Of a stretch of 64,000 nucleotides of DNA, positions 4,101 to 53,925 are shown piece after piece. Below the pieces are notes generated by a model. The model was not told where the DNA came from and made no database searches. It worked only from the letters and a program-made list of their open reading frames with translations. This DNA is from Echinarachnius parma. Lineage: Eukaryota; Echinodermata; Echinoidea; Clypeasteroida; Echinarachniidae. The stretch covers positions 1-64,000 of the forward strand of contig JBAMJV010001317.1 of NCBI GenBank assembly GCA_037951105.1, in the 5' to 3' direction. Every line of letters begins with the position of its first letter. Positions within the stretch are counted from its first letter, which is position 1. A program made the position numbers and the translations under genes.

Positions 4101-7100
4101 TGATGAAAAAATGCGCCAAATTTCGCTAAATAAATGTGAAAATCAACTCGCGATCGCAAGAAATAAAAGCTGCATATATGCGCATGCGCAAGTGACTGAA
4201 GTTAGCTACACAAGCGCAGCAGGGGGATTGAAGTTAGACCACGTGTATTACACGCGCTACTTTGCGTAGCTATTATACAGCTTGCAAGGCAACGCCAAAA
4301 TCAAGTGCTTACTTCAATCTGCAAATGCAACCAATTTCTAATTTCATTTAATTCTCCGATATCCACCCGCCGGGAATTCATACTTTTTGGATGCGCTTTC
4401 ATATTTTTGTAACAAATATGAATTTTCCTAACGGTTGGCAGCTCTGCAATAAGCAATCAATTAAAATATCTTAAGGTTGGCAATGCTATGTGAAAGAACA
4501 CACACAAGCTAAAAGTTTTGGGAACTATTACAGTGCACAAACAAAATTGATCCATGTTTTTTTTTTATATAAAAAAAGCACCCACAGTAGTGTCCAATTT
4601 AGAATTTAAAATATAGCAATAATTTCACCATGAATAACTGTCATGTGTATTACCTTTACCTAATGAAACAAGCTTTACCTGACAAGAAAACAACAACAAC
4701 ACAATTTCAAAGCAATTTCAGATGCGGGATTAATGGAACAGGCATTTTGATACTGCTTTTTTAAATGGTAATTGTTGGAGAAAAAAAATATAAAGTATAT
4801 ACAGTGCCTTTTGAAGAGCCTACCTCCAATGGATATTCCCACGTAGGCAGCATAAAGCAGGAATGCTGACAAGTCACCCACAGAGATCTGAGATTCAGTC
4901 ATCAGATGACCTCCATTGTAGAGAACTGTAAGGATGATCAGGTTGCCTGACAGTCCCATCTATAGCAAATGAACAAATTACAATTTTCAATTAATTAATC
5001 AATTGACAATGGTTTAATCTTAAAAACAGATTCATTATTACAAAAAATAAAATATTAACAGCTCAACCAACTATCAAAAATATTTATTTATGAATATTGG
5101 ATTGGCATTTCAACATTAAAAAGTGTACTACAAATATAACAAAAATTACATATTATACATACATATCCTTTATTTGTTTTCAGAAGAAACCTTTAAAAAC
5201 ATGCATAATCAATCTTTTTTCAAATCAAACACCTTTTGTGTATGCCCATCCAAACTCTCCAAATGATTTTTAAGTTTCATTTGGAAAAGAAGAATATAAT
5301 CAAACATCTAGCTACAATAAAGTACTCACTGCACCAAAGAAAATGCCACTGGCAAATGCTTCCTTCCTGGTCAAGCGAAACACTTTGTCCACCTGGGAGC
5401 TGTAGGAAGCCTCTTCCATCCTCTCGTGGGAGAATGCCCGCACCGTCCTTATGCTACTGATGCGCTCTTCTGCCACCTGCAAAAAGGTTGATATGCATGC
5501 GTCAAAAACTTTTGAGGTAAACTTTAGAGCTGGGCCCATATTCATGATACCATGCTGACTGAATTTGATGCTAAGTCTCCTTTCGATGGTAGTAAAGTAA
5601 ACACTTTAGTCGCGATACCCTGCTTACTTAAATCAAGGATGCCAGTGAGCTAGTAGTTAAGAGCCTAAAAAGTGAGTCATGATACCTACTTTGTGTAGGA
5701 AATTATAAGAATGAGCCTGGAATGCCTGTATTCAGGCTTTTCCCTGAAAACTGGCATCCCTACTTAATTAGATGCCGAGTCTCCTTTGGATAACGATGGA
5801 GTAAGCAACGAATCACCAGCAATGGTTTGTTGGGTAGTTCTTTCTTACTTACTAGTTTAACCCTTGTTTTCAACATAAATGGACACTTGCTGCTAGCAGG
5901 GTTTTATGAATATGGGCCCAGGAGTCTGCAAAATTGACTTAACCCATCGTCAGTTAATCTGGTATGCCATATATTCCTGACCGACAAACTTACTGACTGC
6001 CTCACTGACCATACGCGGATTCGTTTGATCTCCCTATCATTATAATAGCTAGGAGGGGAAGGTTCTAAGGATCACAACCCGTATGTTTACCACCACATAT
6101 TGTCAATACAGAATGGCCCCTACGAGAATCCTCTTATATTATCAAGTTCTGAAAATCTATTCATATAATACCGTATTTGCTGGTGTATTAACCGCACCTT
6201 TTTTCAAAAAAAAAAAAAAAAAAAAAAGGGGGTGCGGTTAATACACGACCGTATTAACCACACTTTCTTTTTTTTTTTTTTTTTTTTTTAGGGGTGCGGT
6301 TAATACACCGGAGCGGTTAATACACCGACAAATACGGTACTTTAGCTCTGATTCTTGACTACTAAAGTTGAGAAAAAAGAATACAGAAAATTAAAACAAG
6401 AGAATGGATTATGTGATGCCTACCTGGGTGGCACTGGCCAGCGAGTCTTGTACTTGTCTTGAAAGGGATCTGACATAGCGCCCGTACACGATGGCTACCA
6501 CAGAGAATGGTGGTACTATCGCCAATACTACAGATGCCAGCTGGGCTGATGAATAGATCTGCATATCGTTGGGTGAGAGTGATAAGGATATCAAGTCAGT
6601 TTGGGGATGAACTGAGATCTACATATATTGTAGCTTGGAGCTCTGTCTATTTGATGCCAAATTTTCAGACAATAATTAGTTTTAAAGGGATAGTTGAGTT
6701 TTGGTATAGATGGCGCTACACAAAATAATTTTTTGTGAGATAATGAAAAACTGAGTGTCAAATTTGAAAGAGCATACAATTTTAATGACAGAATGAGCTT
6801 TATTTGATAAAAATCGGTTCAGAAATGGCTGAAATATCCAACCAGAACGTCAATGACGTAGCGCTCATCCGCCATCTCGCAACATCAAATATCGCAAATT
6901 TCATGTGGTACACTTTTCAACTGGTCAAAAAATGAAAATTGTATGCCCTGGAAGGGACATGAAAATAAAAAATAAAAAATTAGAGTGAAAAAAATATAAA
7001 TTTGACGCCCCGGAAGGGACATGGGAAAAAAAATAAAATAAAAAATAAATTAAAAAAAATAAATTAAAAAAATAAAATAAAAAAATTAAAAAATTTAAAA

Positions 7101-10100
7101 TAAATAAATAAATTTAAAAAAAAAAAAATAAATAAAATAAAATAAAATAAAACAAATAAAACAAAAAAACAAAAAAAATAAAATAAAAATAAAAATAAAA
7201 TAAAACAAATAAAAAAAATTAAAAAATTAAAAAATTAAAAATTACCATAATTAATGAATGGAGAAAAATTTCAAAATTCTGTGTAGAAGTTTAGTGTACC
7301 GAAGTTAGCTCTACCAGATAAAGCAAACCAAATCAAAATCGGTCGAGAAATGAAGGAGAAGAAGCATTTTTTGTGATTTCGAATAAATTTGCATAAATTA
7401 CCATAGATAATGAATTTCACGATTCTGTGTAGAAGTTTTAAATCCCCCTCCTAGCCCTATCTTATGAAACAATCAGAATCAAAATCGGTTGAAAAATAAC
7501 GAAGAAGAAGCATTTTGAAAACTGTGGACGGACGGAAGGACGGACGGACGGACGGACGGACGGACGGACGGACGGACGCCACGGCATGGCATAAGCTCAT
7601 CATGCCCTTCGGGCTGGATGAGCTAAAAACATAACCATTTGTAATAATTGTGGGGCCCCACATTTAATCGATAATTTTGAACCAGCCATTCAATTTTTTT
7701 TTTAAATGCTTCCACTTTTCAAAAATATACAAAAGAGGTTTTTAAATAGTTGTTGATTATCTGTCTATCTAATCACTATTTCAACGAAACACCACATACA
7801 CAATATTTTATTCTAAATGATTGAAACCGATGAGTGTTTAAAGAACGCCCTCTTGAGTTTTAACGGCTCCTTTTTAATGATAACAGGCTGGTTACTTAGT
7901 CATTTGTAATTTTGTATTCCTTTCGAGCATGGTGGAGTTATAACTATTATTTTGTAATGTAATGGCGCAGGTTTTGGTTACTAAAATTCAGTTTGACCAA
8001 AACTGTACTCTCTTTACCAGAACTCAACTATCCCTTTAATATTTGAAATATTTACACAAAATAAACAAGATCTACAATTGATTTCTAAAGGGCACCCACA
8101 TTTCAAAGAGTATCTCTCAAATACAAAAAGTGGCTAAATGCCCTTCTCTCTCTCTCAACCAATGATTTGTTTAAAGAATTGTGAAACATTAAAGGGGTTA
8201 CAGGGATTATTTTTTTTTTTCATTTTCAAGTAATGCCTGTGTGAATTTTTTTATTAATATAAACAATTTTAGATATTTTAGATAATTGTACAACATGAGT
8301 GTCTGCAGACGTATGTGCATGGCATGCATTATACATATGCAATTATTATTATCATTACATTGTTTTTTTAACTAAAATTCATTATTCCTCAAAATGTATC
8401 AACTAATACACAAATCCTGTAGGACACTGATTTTGCACAATTCTGAACTAAATCAATAGGATCAGCAGATGTTTTACAAAATGTCAGCACCCAAAACAGA
8501 GCATGAACAAAAAATCAATAATTCAAGGTGTCTTTTTTCTTTGTTCTCACCCTCATTCCCACAACTCAAACAACCTTGAAATCTGAGAAAAGATCATCTT
8601 GGACGGTTGTTGCTAGAAACTGTCCTAGCTTGAGAATGCAATTAATCTCTGTCACACTGTAGAGTGCATGGAAATCCAGGACTCTATTCTATTCTATTTT
8701 GTTTTGCTTGGTGCCCCCAAACAAAAATTGAAATTCCATCCTACCCGTTTTGTGTGGAAAATTATTAGAATGAGCCTGGGTGCTGAGGTGACCAGAGTGT
8801 TGGTTCACTAAACACTACAATCAGTTTTAGCATAAATTCAAGGGGACGTTTATCACAAAAGTTGATGCTAAAATCAATTTAAGTAAATAGTGAAACACCC
8901 TATAGGTGCATGGGGCCTGAATTAAGGCTTTTGCCTGAAAACTGGCATCCCTGCATAAGTTATCTTTCACCACAAGAAGTTATCTCACCATCATGCCCAC
9001 ACCACCAATGACCTGGACGGTTGAGCGAAGACCATCTGAGATGTTTGATGTGAGAGACTGTCCAATCTTGGACGTGTCTGTGGATAAGCGGTTGATCAGT
9101 TCTCCTGTGGAAGTCTTGTCAAAGAACCCTATCTCTTGGGCCACAATGGATCTGAACAAATTCTCTCTCAGTCTCTTGATTATCCTCTGACCTGCATATA
9201 TATAACGTAGCGAGAGCAAAATTGAATAATGAATTTTCAAGCACTTTTGTTCTCTATTTAAAGTCTCTGTAAAGTACAAATGGGAAAATAAAACTATTAG
9301 AATATATCCTTTGAAGTGCTATAAACAAAGGTATATTATTCTTTCCTTTGATATCAAGGACTTTTCTATCTCAGAGGTGTCTTAGTTACAATAATGTAAA
9401 GGAACAAAATAATTACAGTCCAGACTTAACATCTTTACCTGAAGTCTGCATGAGGTAGACTCGGCCAAAGTTTGCTGCAGCCCCAACCAAGAAGATGCCC
9501 GCCAGAAACGTGCAGAGCCGCTTCAATTGCTGCATCATCTCTTGTCTGCCATCCTCTGTTGATGACCCCTCGTGGATGGTGTCAATCACACGGCCTATGG
9601 CAAATGGTACTGATATGGTGATGGTACTGGATATTAACAGCAATCCGATGGCAACTGAGAAAGGGAACAAAAACAATAATATCAATCAATAAAAACTGAT
9701 AAACCTGATCAGACTAGTCCTAAAAGAACTCGGGCTAGAGCTAAATACAATGTTGTAAAATCTTGAATGGATGAAGTATGCAGATAAATTTATCGAGCAC
9801 AGTCTACACCAGTAACCAAAAAAGAGAAACAAATATTTCAAGTAATTACAACAGGTTAACTAATTTAACTCGAAATTTAAATCTAAGCCATCTACCTCCC
9901 TTATATTCCACTACATGTTGATCCCTTTGACCACCACCCAAGTGATGACAATCAACATACTTTGTCTATTTTTCCTATCCCCCTTTCCCCAAAAAACACT
10001 TCACCTAGGCAATCATCCATTGACAGGTACTACTAGGCCTTGGTCTACTTCCTCAATGTGAACTAGAACATAATGACGTCATGGTTCATGCCGTGCACAT

Positions 10101-10801: not shown

Positions 10802-11264
10802 TGTTGGCTTCAAGTATAATCTTAAACTTAAAGTCTGTCCTCAGGTAAGTAGATCAACGGTATGCTGTCATAAATGCTCCTTATAACGAGTCATCACTCT
10901 GAATGTGAACAAAAATAGAGATAGTATTACTATTAGTAAGCACAAGACGATGAGCAATACATGTGTCATTTACAGGACCAATTATGTTGTTTGAAATGAG
11001 ATCTCATCTGATCGAATTTGCTTCACATAATTGTCAAACTCAAACTCAATCATTATCCAAAACCCAAGACTAAGACAAGAAAGATGTTTTGGTGAAAATT
11101 TCATCATAATTACAAGAATACAAAAAGAAAAAAACACAAATATAAAAATAAGTCTACAAGCGTGATCCGCTACCAAGACATTAGCAGCGCGATTTGACGC
11201 AATAAATAAAAAAAAGGAGTATAGTTACTTACAAGTAAAAGAAATACAAACATGTTTGTTAAAA
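10802..11264 (-). promoter_or_regulatory. Presumed 5' UTR and promoter region of ABCB10
   Basis: Immediately upstream of the ATG and before the first transposon end at 11265. No clear TATA box, CpG cluster or upstream splice site could be fixed by eye. Assigned by position only. Confidence 0.3.
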
Positions 11265-12220
11265 GGGCAAGTCCAAGATAAGGTCAACCTAGCTGTTGAC
11301 ATTTCATCTTGATTTACTGATGACATGTTTCTCATCATATTGAAGCCCATGAGTTGAAGTTTTGAATTCCAAATTCATGTAAATTTATGCAAATTTGAAG
11401 GGCCTCCTTTGCATAAATGTGAAATAGAGCGTTACGTATGGGACAATTATAAAAATTCATAAAAAATCAAAGGGAATGATATGATATTTTATTCATATAT
11501 AGACATGACCAGTCAATCATCCGTATAAATTTTACATAAACATTAAGTCATGACCTAATTAATTATGCAAATTAGGTCATGTCTTAGCATGAAATGTCCC
11601 ATACGTAACAAAATGAGGAACTTTTTTTTCATTTTTTTCAAATAATTTAAAGGGATCTAGTAACTTTGTTGACATGTGCAAAAAGTGATGAATGGTTGAT
11701 GCAATGTATATTGTTGTTATCTCTTATGTCCACAGGGTATTGTGTGAAAATTTCAAGTCAAATGGACATTGTATGGCCAAGTAATGAGCGAAAATGCAAA
11801 GTGATATTCAGTAACTCACTGCACTCACTTTGTACACGGAAGAAAAACTCGCCCGGAGTTTTTCTTATCTGAATACTTCAATCATACATATCTTTGTAAC
11901 GAAAGGGAAATTTGAAAAAACCGAAACCTGTCCCATGATTTTATTGTTAATACGAATACAACAAGGTATAAGGGAACCGCTAGAATTAAAATTCTATTTT
12001 GAGGATTTGGACAATGTTACTAAGTCCCTTTAATACTTATTCTAGTGCAACTTTGGGAAGTTCTAATTCATGCATTTTAAAAGTAAAATACAATAATAAG
12101 CTGGGAAATTTGTATTAGTCTTTGTTTTATAAGAAAATTAGAATTTATAGAAAGTGTTACGTATGGGACAATGTGTTACGTATGGAACAATCATATTATA
12201 CAAAGTCAATGTAGCTGCCC
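11265..12220. mobile_element. Element A: GGGCA-ended element with GTTACGTATGGGAC motifs
   Basis: Left end GGGCAAGTCCAAGATAAGG closely resembles that of the element at 16040. The right end CAATGTAGCTGCCC is a weaker inverted match. The motif GTTACGTATGGGAC (14 bp) occurs near 11431, inverted near 11596, and near 12157, then once with one change near 12174. A TTAA MITE is nested inside (11651-12029). The flanks (AAAA, AGAG) give no clear target duplication. No transposase. Confidence 0.55.
11651..12029. mobile_element. TTAA-flanked MITE, second family
   Basis: TTAA at 11647-11650 and 12030-12033. Ends AGGGATCTAGTAACTTTGT and ACAATGTTACTAAGTCCCT. A near-identical copy in reverse orientation is at 52228-52605, and decayed copies are at 15684-25905 (interrupted) and 43075-43380. 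An apparent 68-residue open frame shared by two copies is a by-product of the repeat. Confidence 0.8.
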
Positions 12221-12319
12221 AGAGCCTCTGTGGCAGATAGGTAAATATTTATTTTGGGAGTGATATTGTCATGATATCAATGTAAATGAGCATATAGAGG
12301 AAGTAATTAGGTCCATAAA

Positions 12320-12740
12320 CTTTTTTTTAGGAGTGGAGCTATTTAAATAAAACAATATTTTAGGCTCGGCAGCCATTTTTAAAGATAAATAGCTAATTTG
12401 CATATTTCTGAATTAGAGCAAGATGGCTATTTGTATTCAGAAAATGTAGTGTAAAATGTTCCAACATTTCATTTAAGGAGGTTGGGGCAAATGAAGCCAT
12501 TTCTGCTTCTCATTTGCATGTATCGCTTGAGCAAAGCCCTGAAATCCAAGATGGCTGCCCCTAATTTGCATATTTATGAATATTACTGTAGCTTACAAAC
12601 ACACAAAATGTATTAATTTGATTTAATCACGTCCTAGTATGTATGTAAGATTTGTTAACTTACTTTGACTCCAAAAAAATTATACAAAGCATATGATTTG
12701 CATAATTTAGATATTTACCTAATTTGCATATTGGGTCATT
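12320..12740. repeat. Single-arm relative of the 49-50 kb foldback
   Basis: Carries CCAAGATGGCTGCCCCTAAT, AATTTGCATATTTATGAATA and AAAGATAAATAGCTAATTTG blocks in the same order as the left arm of the foldback at 49265-50750. The inverted arm is absent here. Confidence 0.6.
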
Positions 12741-12854
12741 CCATGTCAAATCACACAAAAAAGTGAAAATTTTCATCGTACCCCCTTCAAATTTGCTAAT
12801 ATTTGGTATGTATGATATTTCAACCTTTCAAAGCGCAATCCGCTCAACGGTTTT

Positions 12855-13714
12855 GGCGCTATGGTCGATTCTTCTGGGGTAGTTTTGTCAAAAATGGGCG
12901 TGGGCACCGTTTTTCAAATCGCTATTGCATGAATTTCTGTTGCATAGAAACATTAAATTCATTGAAAAGGGATACCTATATATATTTGCTTTCATAATTG
13001 ATGTACAAGTTTGCAAATTGAACTTGAACTTGAAAGATTTTATTCAAGAAAAGATCTCCACCTAGGCCCTAATGCAGAGAGACTTTTTCTGCGTTTCAAC
13101 CAATCAGATTTGTGCATTTAGAACATTTGATCTGACTCGCAATTGATTTATCTCTTTCTGCAACAGGGCCATTGTCAGGTTGGAAACATGTGGTATCATT
13201 AGAATGTCATTTGTCTGTATTGCTCCTGTATGGGGATTAGCAGGTCTATTTAACAGTGGTGAGCCAGAGTGTGAATAGGCTCTAATCCTGACTTTGAAAA
13301 GGTCTTTTTCATACAATACACCCCTATAGAATTCTTGGACATGGGTGTAGGTCTAAAATAATTCAATTTTACATGAAATTTGCAAACTTAAAACAAGGCT
13401 GTAGAAAAAACAAGAAATAATACATCTTCAATTCTTTCATATGTTGTAGATATTATATCAAGCCAAGATTTAAGCCAAAAAAATTCTCAAAATTATTTGA
13501 TCCACGAGGTAAAACGGAAGGTCGAAGCCTAAGGTCAAAGGTTATCGTATCCAAACTCGCTCATGCATGAAAACAAATGAAATAAATGGATTGCATATAA
13601 CATCCCCAGTCCAATGACACCATTGCAAAATAAATTGACCCAACGGTTAACGGACAATGGCGATTTGAAAAACGGTGCCCACGCCCATTTTTGACAAAAC
13701 TACCCCATAGCGCC
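12855..13714. mobile_element. Element with about 60-bp inverted repeats
   Basis: The arm at 12855-12927 (GGCGCTATGG, then GGGGTAGTTTTGTCAAAAAT) is repeated inverted at 13655-13714. The left arm has about 12 extra bases. No coding frame lies between. Ends and target duplication are not resolved. Confidence 0.6.
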
Positions 13715-14663
13715 AGTACTACCACTTTTTTATTTTGAATAGCTAGTCGTTACAGCGGTAGCACACTGCTTTTAAAAGCTAATATTTGAGTAAATGGTCC
13801 TATACAAAGGACCGATTTAGTATTTAGAATACATCGTTAAAAGAAAACTGTATTGACGAAAAAAGAAAAAAAAATGTTGTTCTGTATACCCTCAAAGGTT
13901 GATCTCCACACAAATTTCAAATGTATAACCTCCAAAAAGTCTGCATTTGTTTTTCAAAAGTACCTGTTTTTATGCTTACATATATGCTAATGAACTCATC
14001 TGCTCAGATGTTGTGACGTCATTGAAGCATAACTATAATTGTGTGGTCACTTTACGTACACGCATGACCTTTGTACTCCGTTGTTCGCGGACAATTACCC
14101 ATTGTGAACTGCTGTGCAGTATCGAACTTGAATACGTCAAAGCTCGGACACGGATGTATATGCAAAATTAGATTTCTTGGCCCGAACAAACGGGTCCATT
14201 TTTAAAAGTAAAACTAAAGGAATGCTGTTTGTTATGTCAATTGATTAACTAAGAATTGCAAAGTAAACGAGGTAAATCACTTTCTCTCTCGTTTTGTGTC
14301 TGTTTATGTAGTGCGTGTGCTCCATAAACGGCGCGGGGGTCTATGACACGTGCGGAGTTACCAATTTTGTCTTAATTTGCTAAAGATTGTATCAACATTT
14401 ACCACCACATTTCGGGTAATTTTATTGATGATATTGCGGATATATTTGTAATGTTCTTGTCTATTTTTGTTGCGAGCAAATAGGAAGAAAATAATGAACT
14501 AATATGTTTATATTTCATGTATGGTACTTTTACTTTGTAGATTGGTCTACGACTATTTTCATGAGAAACGTATAGTATGGGCGATGGCATCAGTGACGTA
14601 TTGGATTTTGAGGATTGTTCCATTATTTAGGCATTACTCGTTGATTATTTATGTAAATCAAAT
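13715..14663. other. No gene seen
   Basis: AT-rich sequence with a few CpG-containing patches near 14030-14350. Short open frames on both strands show no recognisable domain. Confidence 0.4.
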
Positions 14664-14942
14664 GATGACATAATGACGCCATCTTGTGTCCACCCGAAGT
14701 ACAACCGTACCGCAGAGCAATCATGGACGCCGCTGGTGTATTGCGTTGTGCATGCAGCGCTTGTATGCACGCTACCCCGGCCGCAAAGAGAGCATTTTGA
14801 ACGTAAATAAAGCATAACAAAAATAATTTTACACTCTTTGGTACCCCAGTGTACCCCAGTGTACAGCCCTGAAAAATAAATAAATAATTAAACAAAATGG
14901 CGGATTTTCATTTGGTACCCCAGGGTACGATTTACGTCATCA
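14664..14942. mobile_element. MITE with GGTACCCC palindromes, copy 1
   Basis: Starts ATGATGACATAATGACGCCA and ends GGTACCCCAGGGTACGATTT then ACGTCATCA. Contains ACAAAATGGCGGAT and CTTGTGTCCACCCGAAGT blocks that reappear inverted at 26763-26993. Confidence 0.6.
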
Positions 14943-15059
14943 AATATTGGAAAAGTTAATGTTAAAGCCTAGGTTTCAAATGATTTATTTGTTTTCTAAA
15001 AGCATGATTTAAATTATCAAAGTAGTGGCGCATTTCCCCAATATAGTCTTCACTTAGAC

Positions 15060-15665
15060 TAATGGCGTTTTCATTCTGCCCAACTTTTCATCGGATGCGT
15101 CCGGATGCAACCGACGAAACGGGCAGCATGAATGTTAGAGAGGAGAAATAGGCGATAGAATTGCAGATGAAAAGAAGAGAAATAGGCGATTAAATTCTCC
15201 TACTCAAGAGCAGGAGAAATTCTCTTTCTATCGGTGTCACTCCGATGAAACTGGCAGCATGAAATGGTTCGGGGGAAAAATGGGAAAAATACCGATGAAA
15301 ATGGTCAAAGGTCGTTATCTTGTTCCGGCTAAAGCAGTGTACGCGCGCTTTTTCGGAACACAGCATGGCATGCAATAATGCTGCGCCAGCATATAGCTAG
15401 TGCAGCGCTCGTGTACCCTGCACATGTTGTTTGTTGACGTTTTGTATATGTCAACGTTGTATTGGAATTGGGCCGGCCTAGCCTGGGGCCAATCCACTAA
15501 TCTGCCAGCAAGCTATTGCGCAACAATTCTTCCCTTCCGGCCGGTGAATGCAAAAGGCGATTAATTTCCCCTGCACTATTAACGCGACAGAGGGGAAGTG
15601 GCGATTTCACCGTTGTTTACATAAGAAATTCCATCTGTATTTTTCATCTGTATTTTCATCGGTAA
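15060..15665. mobile_element. ATCGG-rich element, copy 1
   Basis: Shares CATCGGATGCGTCCGGATGC, TCTCCTACT-AGAGCAGGAGAAATTC and CGGTGTCACTCCGAT blocks in direct order with 19370-19850. Multiple ATCGG/CCGAT units in both orientations. No coding capacity. Confidence 0.6.
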
Positions 15666-18600
15666 GGGCAGTATCAAAATGGTTTTAGTAACATTGTCCA
15701 AATCCTCAAAATCCAATTGGAATTCTAGGCTTCTAGCGGTTCTCTCAGTCATACCTTGTGTTCGTATAAACAAAAAAAGCATGGGACAGACCTGTATTAA
15801 TCACAGGTTTCAGTTTTTTAAATTTCCCTTTCGTTAAAAAGATATTTACGATTGAAGTGTTCAGATGTTAAACTATCCACTAGATCGTCGAAACCGTGTA
15901 TAAAGTCAGTGCAATGACTTTAAGTGAATATCACTTCGTCTTTTAAAGTCGATTTGCATTTTTGCTCGTTACTCGGGTCTCGGCCATATAAATTTTCACA
16001 CAATACCCGGCCCAAGTGGACACATCATATACCGTAGCTGGGCAGGTCCAAGCTATTTGACTTGTGACGTACGGGACATTCACAGCTTTTAATTGATTAT
16101 TACTAAGAGGAAGAAGCTATGATTTGGAATCTTTTTGGTGCTTTGGGAAGCTACTTGCAGTCCCTTCCTAAAATGGAAAAAAAAAATTAAAATCGCTCAT
16201 TAATATTTAATTATGCTAATTAATATGCAGCGTGACGTACGGGACCAGAGAAATATTGATTTTTTTGGAAAATTATGTATCATGAAAATGCTCTGAATAT
16301 ACAGGGCTGATACTAACTAATTTGTAATAGATGCATTCAGTAAACATTCAAGTACACACTACAAAAAAATTGATTAATTCACAACCTTTTTTCCCACGAT
16401 AATTAATGAAAGATAATAGGTATGCGCGTGACGTACGGGACATGTGACGTACGGGACATTTTTTCCTCACTAAAACTATGTCATTTTTCTACTTTAATTT
16501 CATAATATTTCATTTTATTTTGCAATATATTTGTTCTTATTGTATAAACTAATATTCTGATGAATTTTTTTTTTTAAATACTTCTACAAAAAATTATGAT
16601 ACGACTTTTAAAAAATGTTAATTAATTAAGCTAATTAATTCCTAATTAATAATTAACAAAAACTATTTTATCTGGCATGAATATGTGTAGGTTACATTCT
16701 TCTGATGTAAATTACTTTTAAATTTGCCAAAAAATATGAGTAAATTAAACAGAATCATCGAAAATGGGGCAACTTACATGAATTCCCATACATGGACTGT
16801 TCAGAAGAATATAAGTGATTATATTTTGTGCCTTTTTAGCACTTTCTTACAGTTTTTGAACCTGTTTAGAAGGTCTTGGTGTACTTAACCAGTGTACTAC
16901 TGTCTCTCCTTCATTCACATGCAATTTCCCTACTCAAATTGATTGTCTAGTATTTTAGATAATTAATTAAAGGTAATTTTAAGATATTTCAAATTTCCCC
17001 GTCAAGACATATTTTCATGAAAATATAGCTATATCACGAAGTACGAAATGGAAAACATGAATTCTTTTTAGAGATGGCTCCTGAACATAAGACCTATCTA
17101 TTCTGAACTTCTTGGGAGCATCTAAGCATGTATTCTTCTGATGATCAGCGGATAAAACACAAACAAATAATTTGTACCTGCCTTGCCATTGCTTTAAAGG
17201 GGTAGTTAGTTTTGGTAGAGAGGGCGCTGCACATCACAATTTTTTTGTGAGGTAATGAAAAACTGAGTGTCGAATTTGAGAGAACATGCAATTTTAATGG
17301 CAGAATAAACTTTATTTGGTCAAAATTGACCCAGAAACGGCTGAAATATCAATAAATATATCTGATCTTATAATTATTTGGGGCCCAAATAATTAGATGA
17401 TTTTTTCAAAAAATTTAAAAAATGCTTTAACTTTTTCACAAATTTTCAAAAGCGTTTTTTAAATAGTTCTTGATGATCTCTCTATTTAATCATTATGTCA
17501 ATAAAACATCACATGCATAATTTTGTATGAAAAATGGTTGAAACCAATGCCTTTTTAGAAAGCGCCCTCTTGTGTTTTAATGGCTCTTTTTGAATGATAA
17601 CAGGCTTTTTACTTAGTCGTTTGTAATTTTGTATACCTTTCAAGCATGGTGGAGTTGGGCAATTCCGTGGTAACGGAATTACAATTCAGAGAAATTTTGC
17701 TCATTCTTTTTCATGATATGGATTAGTCCTATGACCTAAAGGCTTATCAACACTTTAATAAGTTCTGGAGATATACCTGCTGTCATATAGAAACAAAAAT
17801 ATGGAAATTTCATACATGAGGAAAGTGCTAGCACGTATGATACGTCGGTAACGGAATTACGGCAGAGAATGGGCCTTTTTTCCCACCTTCAACTTTCACA
17901 TGAATTCCTCTGAAATTTAAAAGACATTTTGTGTAGATTTATTTTAAAATTCATTGCTATGGGTGTCAACTTCATGATAACATTAATTTTTTCCTTTATG
18001 TTCATCTTGTTTGGTCGTAACTGACCATGTTTCAAAAAAAGGCAGCGGTAACGGAATTACATAAATGGTAACGGAATTACGCCTTCTGAAATTTACCTTA
18101 AAAAGTTTAATTTTTTGAATACCAGATAAGCTAAAATCCCTTTAAAATGTTATTTTTATGTTCAAACATTTATAAAAACCAAAATGCAAGATACTTTTAT
18201 GCCAAATTATGAAATAATATATGAATACGCCTGCTTAATTTGTTAATTTGGTAACGCAGTGTGAAATTTCTAAAAAAATAACTATTTTTATTTGCGAAAT
18301 TCAAGTCAGTCTTCGTTTACATAGTCCTTGTTATCAAACTCTGCAGTCCTGGCTCAAATCAATGGTCACATATTTCTCTATTTTTTACTAGAAAGCTATC
18401 TAATGTACATGGTAACGGAATTACACTAGTAACACTGCTTTGTCAATTATCCACAAATTCTTCTAAACTATACGTATCCATTGGATAAATATCACTTCTA
18501 CCAAAGTATTTCATACACATATACTACAAAAACACTTTTTTGATCATGTACACTTCCTTATATTATGCAATTTGGACAAAACAGATTGGGAAGCAAGTGC

Positions 18601-18789
18601 TTAGCAGAACAATAAATCAAAGTCAGATGTCAAATGTTGCATACATGTATCAAGGGTAACATGAATTGCTTGAAGTATATCATGCAATACACAATGTGTA
18701 CAACTTGATATTAGAATTCAGAAAACCCTGGGAAGACTTATACATTGGACATGTACTAACAAAGTATGTAACCATGCTAGTAAGTTTAA

Positions 18790-19205
18790 AGGGGACCACC
18801 AGGCAAAGGACAACACATTATTATATGTTTTGGTACCGTTTTGTGATATCAAATAGATACCCGAGGGTTGTGTAATTCATAAACAAATCAATTAATTTCC
18901 ACCACTTACAGAACCACAGCTATTTCCTGGTTCCATACGGGCCAAGCATTTGCGAGTGCGCCAATGCTTTCACGCGTACGTCAATAGAATCCCGGATGAT
19001 TCGTTCGCTCTGCACAGAGCGCTCTGGCTCTGCACGTACGCATATAGTCTTCGCAATTCAGACCGCATGAAAGCATGGTTGAGAATGGTGATGCTTTTTC
19101 CAATTATATATTTTTTCTGAAAACATATTTTTGTGAGCTTGTTGAAGGAATGGAATGATGTTACCTTTCTATAATAAGAATATTATTTTTGGGTGGTGGT
19201 ACCCT
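18790..19205. mobile_element. TTAA-flanked MITE, third family
   Basis: TTAA at 18786-18789 and 19206-19209. Ends AGGGGACCACCAGG and GGGTGGTGGTACCCT. GC-richer centre with GCACAGAGCGCTCTGGCTCTGC. The matching place in the duplicate copy near 20228 lacks it, supporting insertion after the duplication. Confidence 0.75.
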
Positions 19206-19369
19206 TTAATGGCCAGCACGAATAGGGCTCAATCCTATTGTCTGAATGTTAATACCAATAATTCTGGGAAGTTAAAAGCCAGGAAACTAATTAGTATGTT
19301 ATGAGTAATTATATGAAGGAAAGTGTATCTGTCCATTTGTGGCTCATTGAGGGTATCTTATGTTGCTTT

Positions 19370-19850
19370 CATGCTGGACAAATTTCTATCGGATGCGTCC
19401 GGACGCATCCGATGAAACGTCCAGCATGAATGCTACAGAGGTGAAAAAGCCGATAGAATAGGCGATGAAAAGAAGAGAAAAAGGCGATTGTTTTCTCCTA
19501 CTTTAGAGCAGGAGAAATTCACTTTCTATCGGTGTCACTCCGATAGAATCGTCAGCATGAATTGGTTCGGGGAAAAAACACCGATTAAAACGGTCAAAGG
19601 TCGTGACCTTGTTCCGGCTAACGCAGTGCAGCGCGTGCTTTTTTTCGGAACACGGCGTGCGATAATATTATGCATAGCTAGCTCGTGTGTAAAGCGATTG
19701 CGCAACAATTCTTCACTTCCGGCGGGTGAAAGCAAAAGGCGATTAAATTCCCCTCCACTATGAACGCTACAGAGGGGAAGTTGCGAATTGCCCGTTGTTG
19801 ACATAAGAAATTCTATCGGACTTTTCTATCGGTATTTTCTCCCGTTTGCC
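19370..19850. mobile_element. ATCGG-rich element, copy 2, with a 26-bp perfect palindrome
   Basis: Same family as 15060-15665. Positions 19388-19413 are a perfect 26-bp palindrome centred on TCCGGA. Flanking CATGCTGGAC and GTCCAGCATG extend the inverted pairing after a short gap. Confidence 0.65.
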
Positions 19851-20385
19851 AAGCTTGAAAAGGGTATATGATATGCTATTAGACCTGTAAATAATGTCTA
19901 CCTGTATCTACTAAATTGTTCTAAATTAAACTCATCCATCTGATCAAAATCACTACTACTGAAGAATACTACCAAGACACTTTTTTTTTATCATGTACAC
20001 ATACTTGATGCAATTTGGACATAATAAATTGTTAGAAGCATGTACAAGAACATTAATTTATAGTCAGAGATCAGGTGATACATGTATCAGGGATACAATT
20101 AATTGTTTGTAGTATATTATGTAATGCACAATGTGTACAACTTGATATTAAAGATGTTCAAGTTTTAAAAATCCTAAACTTATTTATAAATTGTACTAAC
20201 AAAGTATGTTACAATACTGACAAGTCAAATGGCCAGCAAGGATAGAGTTCAATCTTATTGTCTGAACTTTAATTCATCAGCAATAATACTGGCAAGCTAC
20301 ATTTTAAAGCCAGTGAATAAGCTGGCATGATACATGCATTTATATGAAGGAGAGTATATATCTATTCTGTCTGTTTGTGACTCTT

Positions 20386-21461
20386 TTACATATCTAAGAC
20401 CTGTGAATAAATAATGTAATTGGCCCGAATTCTCAGATCAGTAGCTGAACTTGAGCTTGGCTTGGCTGGTAACAATATTCACCAGTAGACCTATTGTGTA
20501 GTTCCTGTATGGTGCTATAATATTTGAATGGTTTCCTTTCATTATCTAGTCAATCCCTTGAGTTCTGATATTAGGCAACAGGGCAATGGGCCCTTTGAAA
20601 TATAGCCGAAGTATAGTCTGTCATCAGCCCAATTGTGTCTAGATCATCCTGGACATTTGCAGGTGACCTCTTATAATATTGACAGAATTTCAAAGGGCAC
20701 ATTGTCTTAATGCTTTTAAGCAGAAGCAAGGGATTGACTAGATAATGAGATTAAACTTTATACTCAATACTCCTGCTGGCGCAAAGTGGTACTGGTAGTC
20801 TTGGTCTTTTTAGACCAATCTCAAGTTGAGCAACTGATGAGATTTCAAGCCAAAGTCATCTACTATGTGGCCAACCATACTTCTCTGGTACTGTTTGCTT
20901 CAATAATTTGACAGTAATGTTACTATCCACAGCTTCTATCACTTGGCCAATTAATTTGTTGGCATTGTTTTCTTTGCAGTGTTGAACTACCACCCATTTA
21001 AATTTGAGGTCCTACATGCCGCTGCTGATGACATTGCTAATATAGACTGTGTTGTTGCTTTTTCCTCTGTTCTGAGTGTTCTTGCTGTTATCTTGGACAC
21101 TATCTTCCTCAATACTACCTGCAGTCTTAGACTTCAACAAGGGGAGGGTGTTGGGGTTGGGTGATCTATTTTTTATTTTCTTGCCAAAGACTGCAAGATT
21201 TTGTTTGTTTATACTTTGTGAAAACTATGCCTGACATATGTTTAATAGATAAACTGTTTCTCAACTATTTTTATGGCAAAAGAACAGAAGGTCATAAGAG
21301 AGGATCTATCTCATTTGATATCTTCGTTTATATTCATAATTTGTTTTTTACTCATCAGAAGTTGGATTTTGTTTTCCCCTCTGTATAGCAGGTGGAGTTC
21401 CTTTCTTTCAAAAACTTCCTACCCACTCTGAAGTCAAATTAATGTTGCGTCCCCTACCGAT
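20386..21461. other. Interior of element C, no gene supported
   Basis: Two short plus-strand open frames (20979-21164 and 21161-21388) abut here but match no domain I know. The segment may be captured sequence or decayed coding DNA of the transposon. Confidence 0.35.
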
Positions 21462-22654
21462 GTAATTCCGTTACCGGTGTAATTCCGTTACCATGTAATT
21501 CCGTTACCGATGTTTTCATAGAAATGGGTGAAGATATTAAAGAATTGGGTGTTTGGGATTTCAAGGACACATATTTTAGCATTGGATTTACAATTACAGA
21601 ATAATTCATCAATATTAAAGTTCTTTAAAAAAACTTTCTAGGAATTTCGGTAACGGAATTACATACAAATTGGAGTAGATTTGGTCATTCTGTCCAGCAA
21701 ATATTGGTTCCGGTTGGAACAAGTGCTTGACAAAATAAGAAGATTATCCATATACTAGTATAACTGCAAAGTATACAAAGGAATAAGTTCAGGGATCAAT
21801 GATTTATTGATTTGGTATTGAATTTAGTCATTTTTTCAATTCTGAAGCCTAGAAAACCCAACAAGTTCAAACACTGCTTTCAGAAAAACAGATTAAGTTA
21901 TTCACAAACGGTCTTCTATTCACTAATATATAGGACGTTGTCCACCCAAAACATGCTTTGAAATTGTATTTCATAAACTTTTAAATTTTCCATTTTTGGC
22001 CTCTCTCATCCGGAATTGCCCAGTTATAACTATTAGTTTATGTTACTGTCCAGGTTTGGTTACAAAAGTTCAGCCTTACCAAAACTGTACTACCCCTTTA
22101 ACACTGAAAATGTCCCGTACGTCACACTTTTGTCCCGTACGTCACATTTGTTAATTAGCTAATAAAATTAAAACGAAAAAAGGTTTTTTCATCAAACTTG
22201 GCTAGCAGGTTAGGAGTATGATAAATTAGAACTTCACAGAATATGAAAGAAAAAAATCATACTGAAATATTTTTAAATGTGCGTATTTTTGTGACGTACG
22301 GGACATAGCAATTTGGACACGCCCTTATTAGCATAATCAATTAATTTTGAAACTTAAAAATTTGGTCAACTATTGCTAGTAATTAGATTTACTAGTCTCC
22401 ATATATGAAAGTAATGCTTCATTGATTAAATAAATATTAGAAATAAAAATGTAATGTCCCGTACGTCACACTAATATTTGAAATATGCAAATGAGAAGAC
22501 CCCTACTCGTTAAATATGCAGATTATGCAAATTTCCACGCTAAAAATCTGAACTTCAGACTATTAGCTTTTAAATGATACCAAACTTGATTTTATGCTAA
22601 AATGAAGATGAATTTTCACCATCAAGGGGGACATTAGCTTGGACCTGCCCAGCT

Positions 22655-25600
22655 ACACCAGTATTCAGTAACGGATCACTTTTTTGTGGATACAATTTCT
22701 TGCTAAGACAAAATATTTTTAATGAACTTAATCATAAATCGTTGGAAAGCTAAAATGGTGCAGATTACGAATATTGTAAATTCAAACTCATTCCGTCACT
22801 AATAAGCAAATCACTGCGCGTTTTACGAACCCCTTACGCTGCACCAGTAACGGATCACCACTTCACCAGTAACGGATCACCAGGCTTTTAAATTTTAAAA
22901 ATAATTGACCAATTACCTTAATTTTTTCATCAAAGTGTTTGCCAATTAGCAATTTATCCAGGAAAAATGTTACTTCTTAAATGTGCTTCCTTATTTAGTT
23001 ATGAAGAGTTGAATTCTGCCACACATGATCCTGATGAAATTTTAGCAAAAATCACACAAAAACCCGAATTTACCAAAATATCCAAGTAATTTTCGATGTT
23101 TAAGTTAGAAATATCACAGATTCTAGTGAAATACATTGTTACAGCAAAACAAAATTAATTCTGATCTTTTGTTTTGTTTTTAGAATAGAATCTCTAGGTA
23201 ACCGCCCGGACACACTCCTCTCCAGCAGAGAGAAGTATTGGATAAGACGTCTCTGCACCATTCATCCCCGTGGTCTCAACATCCAAGAAGGCAGTGATTA
23301 ACCTTTGCATCTCTCCCCTTCATCGTCTGCACCACCATTTGTTTGTTTTCACCCCCCATATCGATACTTTACTTTGTTCCACATACCATTCATATTCTTA
23401 TTTCCCATTTTATTTTCCCCATATATTCATTTTAGTTTCCTTTGAGATTCACTGTCACCATTCATACACATAATCATGTTAGTTTATTAATATGTTTGTT
23501 ACGCTTTTTGTTACGCATTTAATTTCTCTCTACAGGTACACTGTCCATAGACATGGGCTTATTCATATACATCCACATTCTCATCATGCATAGTACCACC
23601 TCTATTTTGATCATATTGTTCCACCCTCATTTGTCTCTCCACATTCCCTCTGATTACCTACCTATTTAGGCTCCCTTTTGTTCACTATCTCTTTTACACT
23701 CCCTGTCCCATTCATTTGTCTATGTTGCTTCCCCACATATCATCACCTACTGGGTCCTCATCCTTTTCACTCTCTCCTTTGAACTCGCCTATTCATCTGA
23801 TCCTGCAACACACTTCACTTCACTTTCTTTGTCCTAATCCCCCACACTCATAATCCCCTCTATTGTTCCTCCCCTCTGGAGTGCCCTGGGGCACTCCCAC
23901 ACCTCATCACTGTCTTTTGTTCACATGTCTCTTTCAGTTTCTTGATTTATTTCTTTGATCCTCCCTACCTCTATTCTTCTCTAAGCCTTACACTCTCATC
24001 ACATTTTCTTTGACTGCAGCCACTTAAGGACCCTCCCATGCCTGTTTGCCCTGATTGGTCAAGCAGTCCTGACACTCGTCCACTCACAGTTGCTTTCATT
24101 GTTTTGTGTCTCCACCACCTTTCCTCTTTCCAGCCCCCCTTCCACACATGTGTTTATGTTGGTTATATTCTGTGTTTTTTCTGTAGTAACTGTCATTTGT
24201 GCCCTGACGAAGATTCTGCTAGGATCGAAAGCTAGGCTGTATACGACTCTCTTGTTTTGCTTTTATTTAGGATTTGAAAATGGGTGATCCGTTACTGGTG
24301 TAGATAATTTCTGCTGTAATTATACATTAAAATTTGCCTTTTTTTACTATAAGCCTGCACCCAAACACTCGGAAAATGCTGTGGGGTGTATACCAGAACA
24401 TTTTTCTGTGTAAATAATATATGAATTCTAGATCCGTCGGCATATTTTTGTTTTTTAAACATCTTATTTCAAAAAATAAAACAAATTTTTGTTCTTGAAA
24501 ATCTGAAATCTGTACATTTTGTCACTAGATGACACTATTTTGAAGGCTAATTTCTCACTTTTGCGCGATGATCATGGAACTGAGGTTTATCACTTCTAAA
24601 AAGGAGATGATAAAGTAGAATCATGCACATTCCTCTTCCAGTTATGAAAATTAAAACAATTAGATAGTCACAAACGTCTTTATGCATCGATTTGGGTAGG
24701 TGATACGTTACTGGTAGGTAAGGTATGTGACAACAAAATTCAAGTTTTAAATGTTGGCACAATTTTAGTACCATTGGAAAGAGCTTAAAATAAGCATTAC
24801 AGTGATATAAATATATTTGATATTGGTCAATTATTAACAAAGTTAGGATTTTAAAAATATTTAATTATCGGGCTTTTTTTGGTACCCGAAAAACAAAGAA
24901 CAAAGAAAAAGTTGTGACCTTTTCACAACGGTCTGAAATTAACTTGTAACTTTTTCAATATCCAACCGATTTTAATCAAACTTTCAGTAAAGATAGCTGT
25001 ACTGAAAAAGAACACATTACAACTGTTTTTAATTTTTACTGCCCATCAAGGACGAGAGCTATTTTAAGGCAAAATTGATCATTGTTTTCCTCTACAAATT
25101 GGCAACTCGTAAATTTTGTTGGCCGATCAATGCAATCAAAATATGTGGAAAATAATTAGTAATGACCATTTAAGACAAATATGAAGTGACTTTGCCGCAA
25201 AGTTGCCAATTTGAACACCAATATCTGTTTTGAAAATTTCACAATGTGTTGCCAATTTAAGGCAGTGACACTAAATGAAAAAAGGCATTTGCAAGTGCAA
25301 AGTAATGAAAGCGAGGACCCGACTTGTGGTGCAAAATCAGAGAGATGCGTGCAGTTATTATCATCAAAAATATCGTTTCTGTCATCAGATCAACTTGAAA
25401 CTTAAACTGAATGTTCATGGATATATACTCTAACATATCTATACAGATTACAGTTTCAAAACATTTCCTACATACCTTCAGTAAAAAGAGGTGGGATTTC
25501 ACAAGCAAAAGTTTGGATCGATGGTTTATTCACTTCTGAGCGTCGGACGAAAATAAATTGAAGTGCACAACAAAGGGGAACATGTGAGCTACGTCATCAT

Positions 25601-25756
25601 TATATGGGTTCAATGAACTTAGGAAAAGTACAGCCTCTGAAACGATGCACACGGCACGCTGTCAGGGCACCCAAATCCCTTCGCGAAAAAGTCAGCGGTG
25701 CAACGGAGATGCCCACATGAGCGGGGATCTGTCACGTACCTATTACTGATATGATG
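22655..25756. other. Fourth motif-bearing segment (AGTAACGGATCAC), possible element D
   Basis: AGTAACGGATCAC occurs near 22670, 22850 and 22867 (forward) and inverted as GTGATCCGTTACT near 24286, with a degenerate inverted copy near 24702. The layout copies that of elements B and C. CATCATAT at 16023-16030 and ATATGATG at 25749-25756 might be the outer ends, but no target duplication supports this. Confidence 0.4.
23180..24245 (+). mobile_element. Penelope-like retroelement tail (GIY-YIG C-terminus plus 3' region)
   Basis: A short frame ending with TAA near 23300 reads SSREKYWIRRLCTIHPRGLN then IQEGSD. The pattern REKYWI-x-L-x-T-x-HP-x-GLN is the C-terminal end of GIY-YIG endonuclease domains in Penelope-like elements. 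About 900 bp of pyrimidine-rich sequence follows, ending CCTGACGAAGATTCTGCTAG, GATCGAAAGCTAGG. A relic of the same tail is at 41030-41190. The element is 5'-truncated. Family assignment is from motif memory. Confidence 0.55.
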
Positions 25757-25905
25757 TAGAAACGGTAATTAGTAAATATATTAAAGTAACATAACCACAA
25801 TTATAAAAACAATATACATTGATTTGAATCAACCCCGAATCAACCATTCATCGCATTAGCATCCATCACTTTTTGCACATGTCAACAAAGTTACTACCGG
25901 TAGAT

Positions 25906-33700: not shown

Positions 33701-36700
33701 ATTTTTTTTTAAAGACCCTGAAGTGCTGTTGGAATGCTTATACCACTGGTCTAGGGCATGACAAAAGCTTAATGTTGAATGTAGCATTCATCAACATCAT
33801 TTTCTCACCTAAAAATAGTGGTTAGTACACAAATTACACATTTATTGAGCAGTAACACTGGTGCTCATAAATATTCATATTCATATTCATGAATATTCTT
33901 TAGCACCAATACTCACTAAATATAATGCAATTTTCTAAATTTACTACTAACTAATTTTAATTATAAGCAAAATTTATAACCACTGGTTAGAAAATTGCAT
34001 ATTTAATTAGTACTGCTGCTCACGAATGTATGAATATTCATGAGCAGTAGTATTACTGCTCAATAAACTTGCAATTTTTATGCCTCCGCAACGAAGTAGC
34101 CGGAGGCATTATGTTTTCGGGTTGTCCGTCCGTACGTACGTACGTACGTACGTCCCGTTCTCGTGATCGCGTTATCTCAAGAACGGATTGACGGATTCTG
34201 ACCAAACTTGGTGCATGTATGTATCTTGGGGAGCCAATGAACTGATTAGATTTTGGGGTCATGAGGTCAGAGGTCATTCTATATGCAAAAATAGCTTGTG
34301 ATCGCGTTATCTCAAGAACAGATCGACGGATTCTGACCAAACTAGGTACATGTATGTATCTTTGGAGGCCGGCGATCTGATTAGATTTTGGGGTCATGAG
34401 GTCAAAGGTCACAGAGGTCATTCTATATGCAAAAATAGATTGTGATCGCGTTATCTCAAGAACGGATTGACAGATTCTAACCAAACTTGGTACATGTATG
34501 TATCTTAGGGAGCCAATGAACTGATTAGATTTTGGGGTCATGAGGTCAAAGGTCACAGAGGTCATTCTATATGCAAAAATAGCTTGTGATCGCGTTATCT
34601 CAAGAACGGATTGACGGATTCTGACCAAACTTGGTACATTTATGTACCTTGGGGAGCCAATGATTTGATTAGATTTTGGGGTCATGAGGTCAAAGGTCAA
34701 AGGTCACACAGCTCATTATACTTGCAAAAATAGCTTGTAATTGGAAATCTCAAGAACTGAATGTCAGATTTCAATCCAACTTGTACCTGAATGTATCTTA
34801 GAGAGCATTTGTAGTCATTACATTTTGGGGTCATGTGGTCAAAGGTCAAATTCACAGGACTCATTTTGTAAAATTATCTCAAGAATCAGTTGACAAATAA
34901 CCGTCAAACTTGGTACCTATAATTTGAATTTGAATGAGGGCAAAGGTCAAGGTCACTTATATATAGCTGATAATTGTGATATGTCAAGATCTGAAAGACA
35001 GATTACCATCAAAATTGAGTTGACAGAATTAATTCTGTGTATGTTAATTTGGGCTTGATATATATAAATCGCGCAATGACGGAGGCATCATTTTCTAAAA
35101 ATAGTGGTTAGTACACAAATTACACATTTATTGAGCAGTAACACTGGTGCTCATAAATATTCATATTCATATTCATGAATATTCTTTAGCACCAATACTC
35201 ACTAAATATAATGCAATTTTCTAAATTTACTACTAACTAATTTTAATTATAAGCAAAATTTATAACCACTGGTTAGAAAATTGCATATTTAATTAGTACT
35301 GCTGCTCACGAATGTATGAATATTCATGAGCAGTAGTATTACTGCTCAATAAACTTGCAATTTTTATGCCTCCGCAACGAAGTAGCCGGAGGCATTATGT
35401 TTTCGGGTTGTCCGTCCGTACGTACGTACGTACGTACGTCCCGTTCTCGTGATCGCGTTATCTCAAGAACGGATTGACGGATTCTGACCAAACTTGGTGC
35501 ATGTATGTATCTTGGGGAGCCAATGAACTGATTAGATTTTGGGGTCATGAGGTCAGAGGTCATTCTATATGCAAAAATAGCTTGTGATCGCGTTATCTCA
35601 AGAACAGATCGACGGATTCTGACCAAACTAGGTACATGTATGTATCTTTGGAGGCCGGCGATCTGATTAGATTTTGGGGTCATGAGGTCAAAGGTCACAG
35701 AGGTCATTCTATATGCAAAAATAGATTGTGATCGCGTTATCTCAAGAACGGATTGACAGATTCTAACCAAACTTGGTACATGTATGTATCTTAGGGAGCC
35801 AATGAACTGATTAGATTTTGGGGTCATGAGGTCAAAGGTCACAGAGGTCATTCTATATGCAAAAATAGCTTGTGATCGCGTTATCTCAAGAACGGATTGA
35901 CGGATTCTGACCAAACTTGGTACATTTATGTACCTTGGGGAGCCAATGATTTGATTAGATTTTGGGGTCATGAGGTCAAAGGTCAAAGGTCACACAGCTC
36001 ATTATACTTGCAAAAATAGCTTGTAATTGGAAATCTCAAGAACTGAATGTCAGATTTCAATCCAACTTGTACCTGAATGTATCTTAGAGAGCATTTGTAG
36101 TCATTACATTTTGGGGTCATGTGGTCAAAGGTCAAATTCACAGGACTCATTTTGTAAAATTATCTCAAGAATCAGTTGACAAATAACCGTCAAACTTGGT
36201 ACCTATAATTTGAATTTGAATGAGGGCAAAGGTCAAGGTCACTTATATATAGCTGATAATTGTGATATGTCAAGATCTGAAAGACAGATTACCATCAAAA
36301 TTGAGTTGACAGAATTAATTCTGTGTATGTTAATTTGGGCTTGATATATATAAATCGCGCAATGACGGAGGCATCATTTTCGACTGCGCGCAGTCGAAGA
36401 TCCATCTAGTTTTTTCTTCTTTCAATGGCTGTTTCAAAATTATTTAATTATTGTGGGACCCTACAATAATTACAAATGGTATTTCAGCCGTCTCTAAACT
36501 GATCTTGATGAAATAACGTTTAATATTATATGACCTATATAGATACTGGTGTGCGATTGGTCAAAATGCTGTCACGTGACCATCGCTACAAGGATGAGAA
36601 GCGTTATATTGTCAAACATGACGTAAATTACGTCATACCTCTTAATATAACGCCGTTATATACAGAGGTATGACGTAACAATACAAACTTTTTCTGTCGA

Positions 36701-52223: not shown

Positions 52224-52227
52224 TTAA

Positions 52228-52605
52228 AGGGACTTAGTAACATTGTCCAAATCTTCAAAATAAAATTCTAATTCTAGCGGTTTCCTTATACCTTGTTGTA
52301 TTCGTATTAACAATAAAATCACGGGACAGGTTTTGGTTTTTCAAATTTCCCTTTCGTTACAAAGATATGTATGATTGAAGTATTCAGATAAGAAAAACTC
52401 CGGGCGAGTTTTTCTTCTGTGTACAAAGTGAGTGCAGTGAGTTACTGAATATCACTTTGCATTTTCGCTCATTACTTGGCCATACAATGTCCATTTGACT
52501 TGAAATTTTCACACAATACCCTGTGGACATATGAGATAACAACAATATACATTGCATCAACCATTCATCAATTTTTGCACATGTCAACAAAGTTACTAGA
52601 TCCCT
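52228..52605. mobile_element. TTAA-flanked MITE, second family, intact copy
   Basis: TTAA at 52224-52227 and 52606-52609. Ends AGGGACTTAGTAACATTGTC and CAAAGTTACTAGATCCCT. Near-identical inverted copy of 11651-12029, used here as the reference for the interrupted copy at 15684. Confidence 0.85.
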
Positions 52606-52752
52606 TTAACCTTTGCTCTCTACCACTAAACAATTTTTGCAGCTGAAACTAAAGCAGGCTGTCCTGCTACTGCAAGTACAGCCATGTTCTTTTTATATAG
52701 AATGTATGTGTGTGAGTATCTTAATCTTGTTTGGACATACTTTAGAACTTAA

Positions 52753-53921: not shown

Positions 53922-53925
53922 TTAA

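Follow-up and report, generated by a model that had tools for sequence, protein, structure and literature searches.

The transposons piggyBac and piggyBat carry few sites, close to their tips, and have TTAA targets, and Chapaev elements have termini of the CAC type. Two motifs are described as having a common spacing in piggyBat and piggyBac though the ends differ (PMC11707139), and in the hAT element Hermes the subterminal repeats are read by a DNA-binding domain and arranged differently at the two ends, the motifs being short (AAGT) with five of them within 55 bp of each terminus (PMC10368747). Ginger1 and Ginger2 are described with TGTNR ends and terminal inverted repeats (TIRs) of 40–270 bp, Ginger1 targets being CCGG or CCGT (PMC2836005), and Sola2 with 4-bp AT-rich duplications (AWWT; ATAT, AAAT, ATTT) and TIRs of 12, 13 or 21 bp (PMC3627910). 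Here we describe three families of non-autonomous transposons, A, B and C, that are probably related and are represented in a 64,000-nucleotide stretch of the Echinarachnius parma genome (the window; assembly GCA_037951105.1, contig JBAMJV010001317.1, positions 1 to 64,000, forward strand). In all three the subterminal sites are laid out in much the same way, and in each they are written in a different word of 13–14 bp.

A pile of nested transposons occupies 11.2–25.9 kb of the window, and in two of its members, B and C, both ends are complete. Element B (16040..22650, forward strand) is non-autonomous and has about 1.7 kb of sequence of its own, the remainder being the nested elements E and C; its inverted ends, GGGCAGGTCCAAGCTA, are identical over 16 bp and are flanked by an exact target site duplication (TSD), AGCT, at 16036..16039 and 22651..22654. 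Element C (17657..22021, forward strand, likewise non-autonomous) has inverted ends identical over 11 bp (GGGCAATTCCG) and an exact AGTT duplication at 17653..17656 and 22022..22025. When the window was scanned for GGGC ends matching in 9 or more of 10 letters together with an exact 4-bp duplication, only B and C passed, against a mean of 0.025 in 40 Markov copies of the window.

We searched the genome (1.2 Gb, 14,790 contigs) for further copies of these elements and of those into which they are inserted. Element B lies in the left end of an element D, and 12 of 13 fetched D copies carry the empty site TACCGTAGCTAC with one AGCT (the 13th differs); C interrupts element E (17194..22101, forward strand, TTAA-flanked, with its junctions examined), itself inserted in B, and at 53.5 and 58.5 kb there are E copies in which the same point has a single AGTT. 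Because these paralogous empty sites carry a single copy, the duplications of B and C are marks of insertion, and the ends and duplications that a sequence-only reading had assigned to both elements are borne out. The order of insertion in the stack is D, B, E and then C, with an older B carrying a younger C. The window B is 84% identical to three complete genomic B copies, which are ~98% identical to each other. Among ten C copies compared (the window's included, which is at most 98.6% identical to genomic copies) nine are mutually 95–99% identical and one ~84%, and C therefore moved lately.

Element A had been taken for a short complete element at 11265–12220. Two complete A-type copies in the genome (L006 and L008; 1720 and 1740 bp) rule this out, as they match the window copy at 90–93% identity from 11265 to 12732, on both sides of a nested element G (11647..12033), and the GGGC at 12220 is internal to the A-type element. 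What the window contains (11265..12732, reverse strand) is a truncated 1.7-kb A-type element of which the right-end part remains, with its terminus at 11265 and with ~630 bp at the left absent.

Within each of the A, B and C families the word is the same, or almost the same, at every site. Eight exact copies of the B word GTGACGTACGGGAC and nine of the C word GTAACGGAATTAC are present in the window, all of them within B and C respectively and 13–755 bp from that element's own ends, as had been proposed; neither word occurs in 100 shuffles. The A word is GTTACGTATGGGAC, and at each of the four homologous A/B right-end sites in the window it differs from the B word at two positions, the same two throughout, one A site having one further change. 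Genome-wide, the C word GGTAACGGAATTAC matches 838+813 times vs 2+3 in a reversed control, and a pattern spanning both the A and the B words matches 1669+1660 times vs 268+229. The C and B word pairs had no match in viral contigs, and a single match of the B pair in a general collection of genome contigs, on a Streptomyces contig, is probably due to chance. We considered whether the TIRs repeat the family's own word as a general rule and rejected it; this is clear in C only, where the own word read outward scores 8 and 7 (next best word 5 and 6), and in the A and B TIRs the own word scores no better than those of the other families.

Matching ends with an exact 4-bp duplication were found at 20 of the 28 A-, B- and C-type genomic loci tested for both ends, a count favoured by our choice of the best TIR and TSD pair where several GGGC positions were possible. 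These comprise 8 of 14 A/B loci (the remaining 6 being truncated or without a matching end pair in the stretch), all nine of a first set of C loci, and three of five other C loci, each with 8 or more sites, of which one failed with AAAT vs ATAT and one had no pair of ends; fifteen loci with four C sites, and loci L002–L005, which overlap L010, stand outside the count. A set of 19 duplications (10 C, 7 B and 2 A, the window's two included) is 89% A+T and fits AWWT in 8 cases, and three added C-locus duplications (ATGT, ATGT and ATAT) bring the fit to 9 of 22. The targets are thus AT-rich 4-mers rather than the AGYT that had been proposed from the window, which is seen in 2 of the 22. Inverted ends, a target duplication of fixed length and empty sites mark the families as cut-and-paste elements, as such well supported and ordinary in kind; what is unusual is the contrast between a largely steady layout and changing words.

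Duplications of 4 bp set A, B and C apart from hAT elements, in which the duplication is 8 bp. TTAA, the target of piggyBac and Kolobok, occurs once in the 22 duplications, and the GGGC ends do not agree with the CAC-type termini that define Chapaev. As in Hermes there are repeated subterminal sites with an end-specific arrangement, their binding here being predicted, whereas the words are longer, at 13–14 bp, and stand singly or closely grouped ~150–200 bp apart. Ginger1 and Ginger2 also make 4-bp duplications, but the ends here are GGGC (which was also a search criterion) and match over ~11–16 bp, and neither CCGG nor CCGT is present among the 22 duplications. Sola2, with its AT-rich 4-bp duplications and short TIRs, has the closest published target preference that we found, although fewer than half of the duplications here fit AWWT; it gives only a hint that the A/B/C group is Sola2-like in its targets. 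The scanned window frames had no Pfam match, and hence none to a Sola-type DDD transposase, in a model set that included no Sola model. Our literature search did not return these families; Repbase was outside its scope, so they may be catalogued there.

The layout of the sites is end-specific. In the window B has a left array (16064..16457, forward strand) with sites at 16064, 16232, 16428 and 16444, all pointing inward at offsets of 24, 192, 388 and 404 from the end, and a right array (22112..22469, reverse strand) with sites at 22112(-), 22132(-), 22291(+) and 22456(-), at offsets of 525 inward, 505 inward, 346 outward and 181 inward. The C left array (17670..18424, forward strand) has inward sites at 17670, 17848, 18048, 18068 and 18412 (offsets 13, 191, 391, 411 and 755), and the C right array (21462..21662, reverse strand) has sites at 21462(-), 21479(-) and 21495(-), inward at 547, 530 and 514, and at 21650(+), outward at 359. 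The A sites (11431..12188, forward strand) are at 11431(+), 11596(-), 12156(+) and 12175(+, one mismatch); with G removed their offsets are ~166 inward, 331 outward, and 505 and 524 inward (these two to within 3 bp), which is the right-end pattern.

We compared the families by offsets from the ends of one copy of each. On the left, with all sites inward, these are 24, 194, 389 and 404 in A, 24, 193, 389 and 405 in B, and 13, 191, 391, 411 and 754 in C. On the right they are 180 inward, 336 outward, 513 and 532 inward in A (180, 345, 522 and 541 in a second A copy), 178 inward, 343 outward, 511 and 531 inward in B, and 359 outward, 514, 530 and 547 inward in C. Most sites of the three families agree in position and orientation within ~25 bp, and the left and right patterns differ: the common left layout has inward sites near 13–24, 191–194, 371–391 and 391–411, and the common right layout has an inward site at ~180 (A and B only), an outward one at 336–360 and inward ones at 511–522 and 530–541. 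C has one extra site at each end. Nine C loci hold the layout within a few bases, two of them with left sites moved by 10–20 bp.

Against a null in which close groups of sites are kept together and placed at random, the agreement has p 0.006 (left) and 0.001 (right) for A and B, p 0.003 (left, 3 of 3 clusters) and 0.017 (right, 2 of 3) for B and C, and p 0.003 for the left ends of A and C; the window copies of B and C give p 0.003 and 0.016, and controls with swapped ends p 0.42, 1.0 and 0.42. The cluster centres fit a step of ~184 bp, a fit equalled by 1 of 3000 random sets for B and C pooled and by 139 and 87 of 3000 for the two taken singly, so that the period is no more than suggestive. 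At offset 594 in the C left end, in the place of a missing step, there is a degenerate GTAACG copy. We rejected a decayed 180-bp tandem repeat as the source of the arrays; the units are dissimilar, and for the best of them 45 of 200 shuffles were as good.

With a probability of about 0.65, we consider A, B and C to be three related non-autonomous families with a largely constant site layout and changed words, the joint change being driven by a transposase. They would form one group of non-autonomous cut-and-paste DNA transposons. A putative transposase, acting in trans, would load the subterminal arrays through a site-specific DNA-binding part; the asymmetric layout would pair left with right ends, and cutting at the GGGC ends and joining to AT-rich targets would leave the 4-bp duplications. 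A shift in the specificity of the DNA-binding part would then have selected for sites that followed it, all those of a lineage together, the layout presumably being kept while the word changed in every site. The proposal made from the window, of one superfamily with changing words, holds up in its ends, 4-bp duplications, shared geometry and a family-specific word for A, B and C; the AGYT rule, the inclusion of D and the complete A have to be given up.

Several points weigh against this reading. A transposase was not found among the stretches scanned, and the putative superfamily and predicted binding rest on the anatomy of the elements. The geometry tests were devised after the data had been seen, and the right ends of A and C share just one cluster out of three (p 0.29; 336 vs 359). 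The near-constancy of the C sites (1 mismatch in 1260 letters, with 235 in 12,703 for the end spacers) is a biased count, as the loci were drawn from an exact-word list that favours intact sites. In the window, global alignment of the B/C spacers found 10, 11, 17 and 211 of 500 shuffles as good, and these spacers, like the A/C right end, count against selection on spacing. The A/B right spacers of the genomic copies are clearly homologous (shuffles did as well in 0, 3 and 0 of 300 cases), and with such residual homology the layout may partly be plain descent.

Carried further, that last point becomes the strongest of the alternatives: that there is shared descent only, with the layout inherited without selection on spacing and the words merely the best-conserved part. 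The right-end spacers of A and B do align far above chance, and the left ones have 10 and 0 of 300 shuffles as good; those of B/C (4, 89, 72 and 72 of 300 shuffles as good) and A/C (186, 1, 67 and 136) align weakly on the left and in part. A and B thus visibly share descent, and C at most in traces; a forced alignment of full-length A and B gives ~51% identity, yet the two are similar in length (1.71–1.74 kb) and in site offsets. We regard descent alone as unlikely, as three of the four B/C spacers in genomic copies are not above shuffles and yet the sites fall within 16 bp, and a local comparison of the whole B and C ends in the window shows no similarity (113 and 147 of 200 shuffles scored as well). 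Had insertions and deletions been neutral, the sites would be expected to have moved, and the words differ in every site of a family.

It is improbable that A/B and C belong to different superfamilies and reached similar ends and layout independently. The Repbase rule for one superfamily is described as the same TSD length and at most one mismatch in termini 1–11 (PMC4455052); the A and B termini (GGGCAAGTCCA and GGGCAGGTCCA) differ at 1 of 11 positions and lie within it, and those of C differ from A at 2 and from B at 3 and lie outside. A/B and C are nevertheless alike in TSD length, AT preference, GGGCA start and similar layout, and the right ends of A and B are related to each other. Least probable of all is that the arrays are bound by a host factor or control transcription rather than serve a transposase, which would suit arrays that extend to 755 bp inside the ends and whose binding is predicted. 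A transposase accounts better for words that are specific to a family at both ends and for a layout that is specific to each end, and the subterminal repeats of Hermes are described as bound by the Hermes transposase (PMC10368747).

If the words changed together with a transposase, a more speculative extension may be drawn, which we put forward only tentatively: the scaffold of sites in the transpososome would be hard-wired and left/right-asymmetric with a spacing of ~180 bp (perhaps one nucleosome step), and the modular word, swapped in all sites, would insulate coexisting families from each other's transposase. How the specificity of a transposase and of many sites can change jointly is an open question, because an altered protein fails on old sites and altered sites fail with the old protein. 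By an estimate from the word counts, one genome contains a few hundred copies of related families whose words differ at corresponding positions. This would allow the order and the dates of the word changes to be worked out and cross-mobilisation to be tested; from the shared layout one can also predict the sites that are important for the synapsis of the ends.

A search for the enzyme returned no Pfam family in the six frames of 11000–15979 and 16040–25898 (stops as X, E up to 1), and inspection by eye of the long frames in the longer fetched copies turned up no recognisable transposase. Autonomous copies were not recognised among the fetched loci, the longest frames at L014, L015 and L017 being of 107, 100 and 87 residues and assessed by eye; frames of 809 and 296 residues at L059 and L061 resemble reverse transcriptases by eye. 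Element C contains a coding remnant (20859..21017, reverse strand) with one stop in the window copy and open frames of 105 and 122 residues in two other copies. The remnant frames tested had no Pfam match, and one had no PDB match. A genome search with it gave 254 candidates, of which 150 were scored and matched, and at least 4 C sites are present at all ten remnant loci returned and all eight fetched. The remnant may be the tail of a lost transposase gene.

The segment from 22655, which had been counted as a further member of the group, belongs elsewhere, as its family has TACCGT ends and no GGGC. This D copy (16030..24725, forward strand) is present in three pieces, 16030–16039, 22655–23185 and 24248–24725, with B inserted in its left end and sites at 22667, 22846 and 22868 (+) and at 24284 and 24700 (-). 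All 13 fetched D copies, 968–1025 bp long, start with TACCGT and end with ACGGTA, which refutes a fourth GGGC element with its right end at 25714 and an ACAT duplication. No duplication of 2–8 bp lies outside the TA in 12 of the 13, L036 having 4 matching letters, and the family apparently targets TA, which is found at both junctions. The D word CCAGTAACGGATCACC has 457+435 genomic matches vs 0+0 in the control, and it also contains GTAACGG, though D is outside the GGGC group. We take the D layout to be reminiscent of the inverted repeat/direct repeat arrangement of TA-inserting elements. The gap at 23186–24247 within the D copy is a CT-rich insert, and at 24200–24245 the sequence CTGACGAAG...GGATCGAAAGC has a likeness to a hammerhead ribozyme core; Rfam gave no match at gathering thresholds.

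Other insertions surround these elements. A 415-bp insert with ends AAAGGGGACCACC/GGTGGTACCCTTT lies inside C at 18793–19207, and the region around it also has a diverged direct duplication (18448–19348 vs 19905–20386). More E copies, some of them interrupted, are found at 53465–53925, 58488–58931 and 6681–8019. Element G (forward strand, TTAA-flanked), nested in A, is 97.4% identical to a copy at 52224–52609, and further copies are at 43069–43386 and 15677–16035; the last is broken by the D/B stack and has its matching end at 25846–25896. An ABCB10-like gene is present on the left side of the window. To the right of the stack is a 1.3-kb tandem duplication (33795–35095 and 35086–36381; 99.6% identical, with 144-bp repeats), reflecting either a recent event or an assembly artefact, and an open frame of 1027 residues at 60915–63998 (reverse strand), rich in an 11-residue repeat, runs off the window end.

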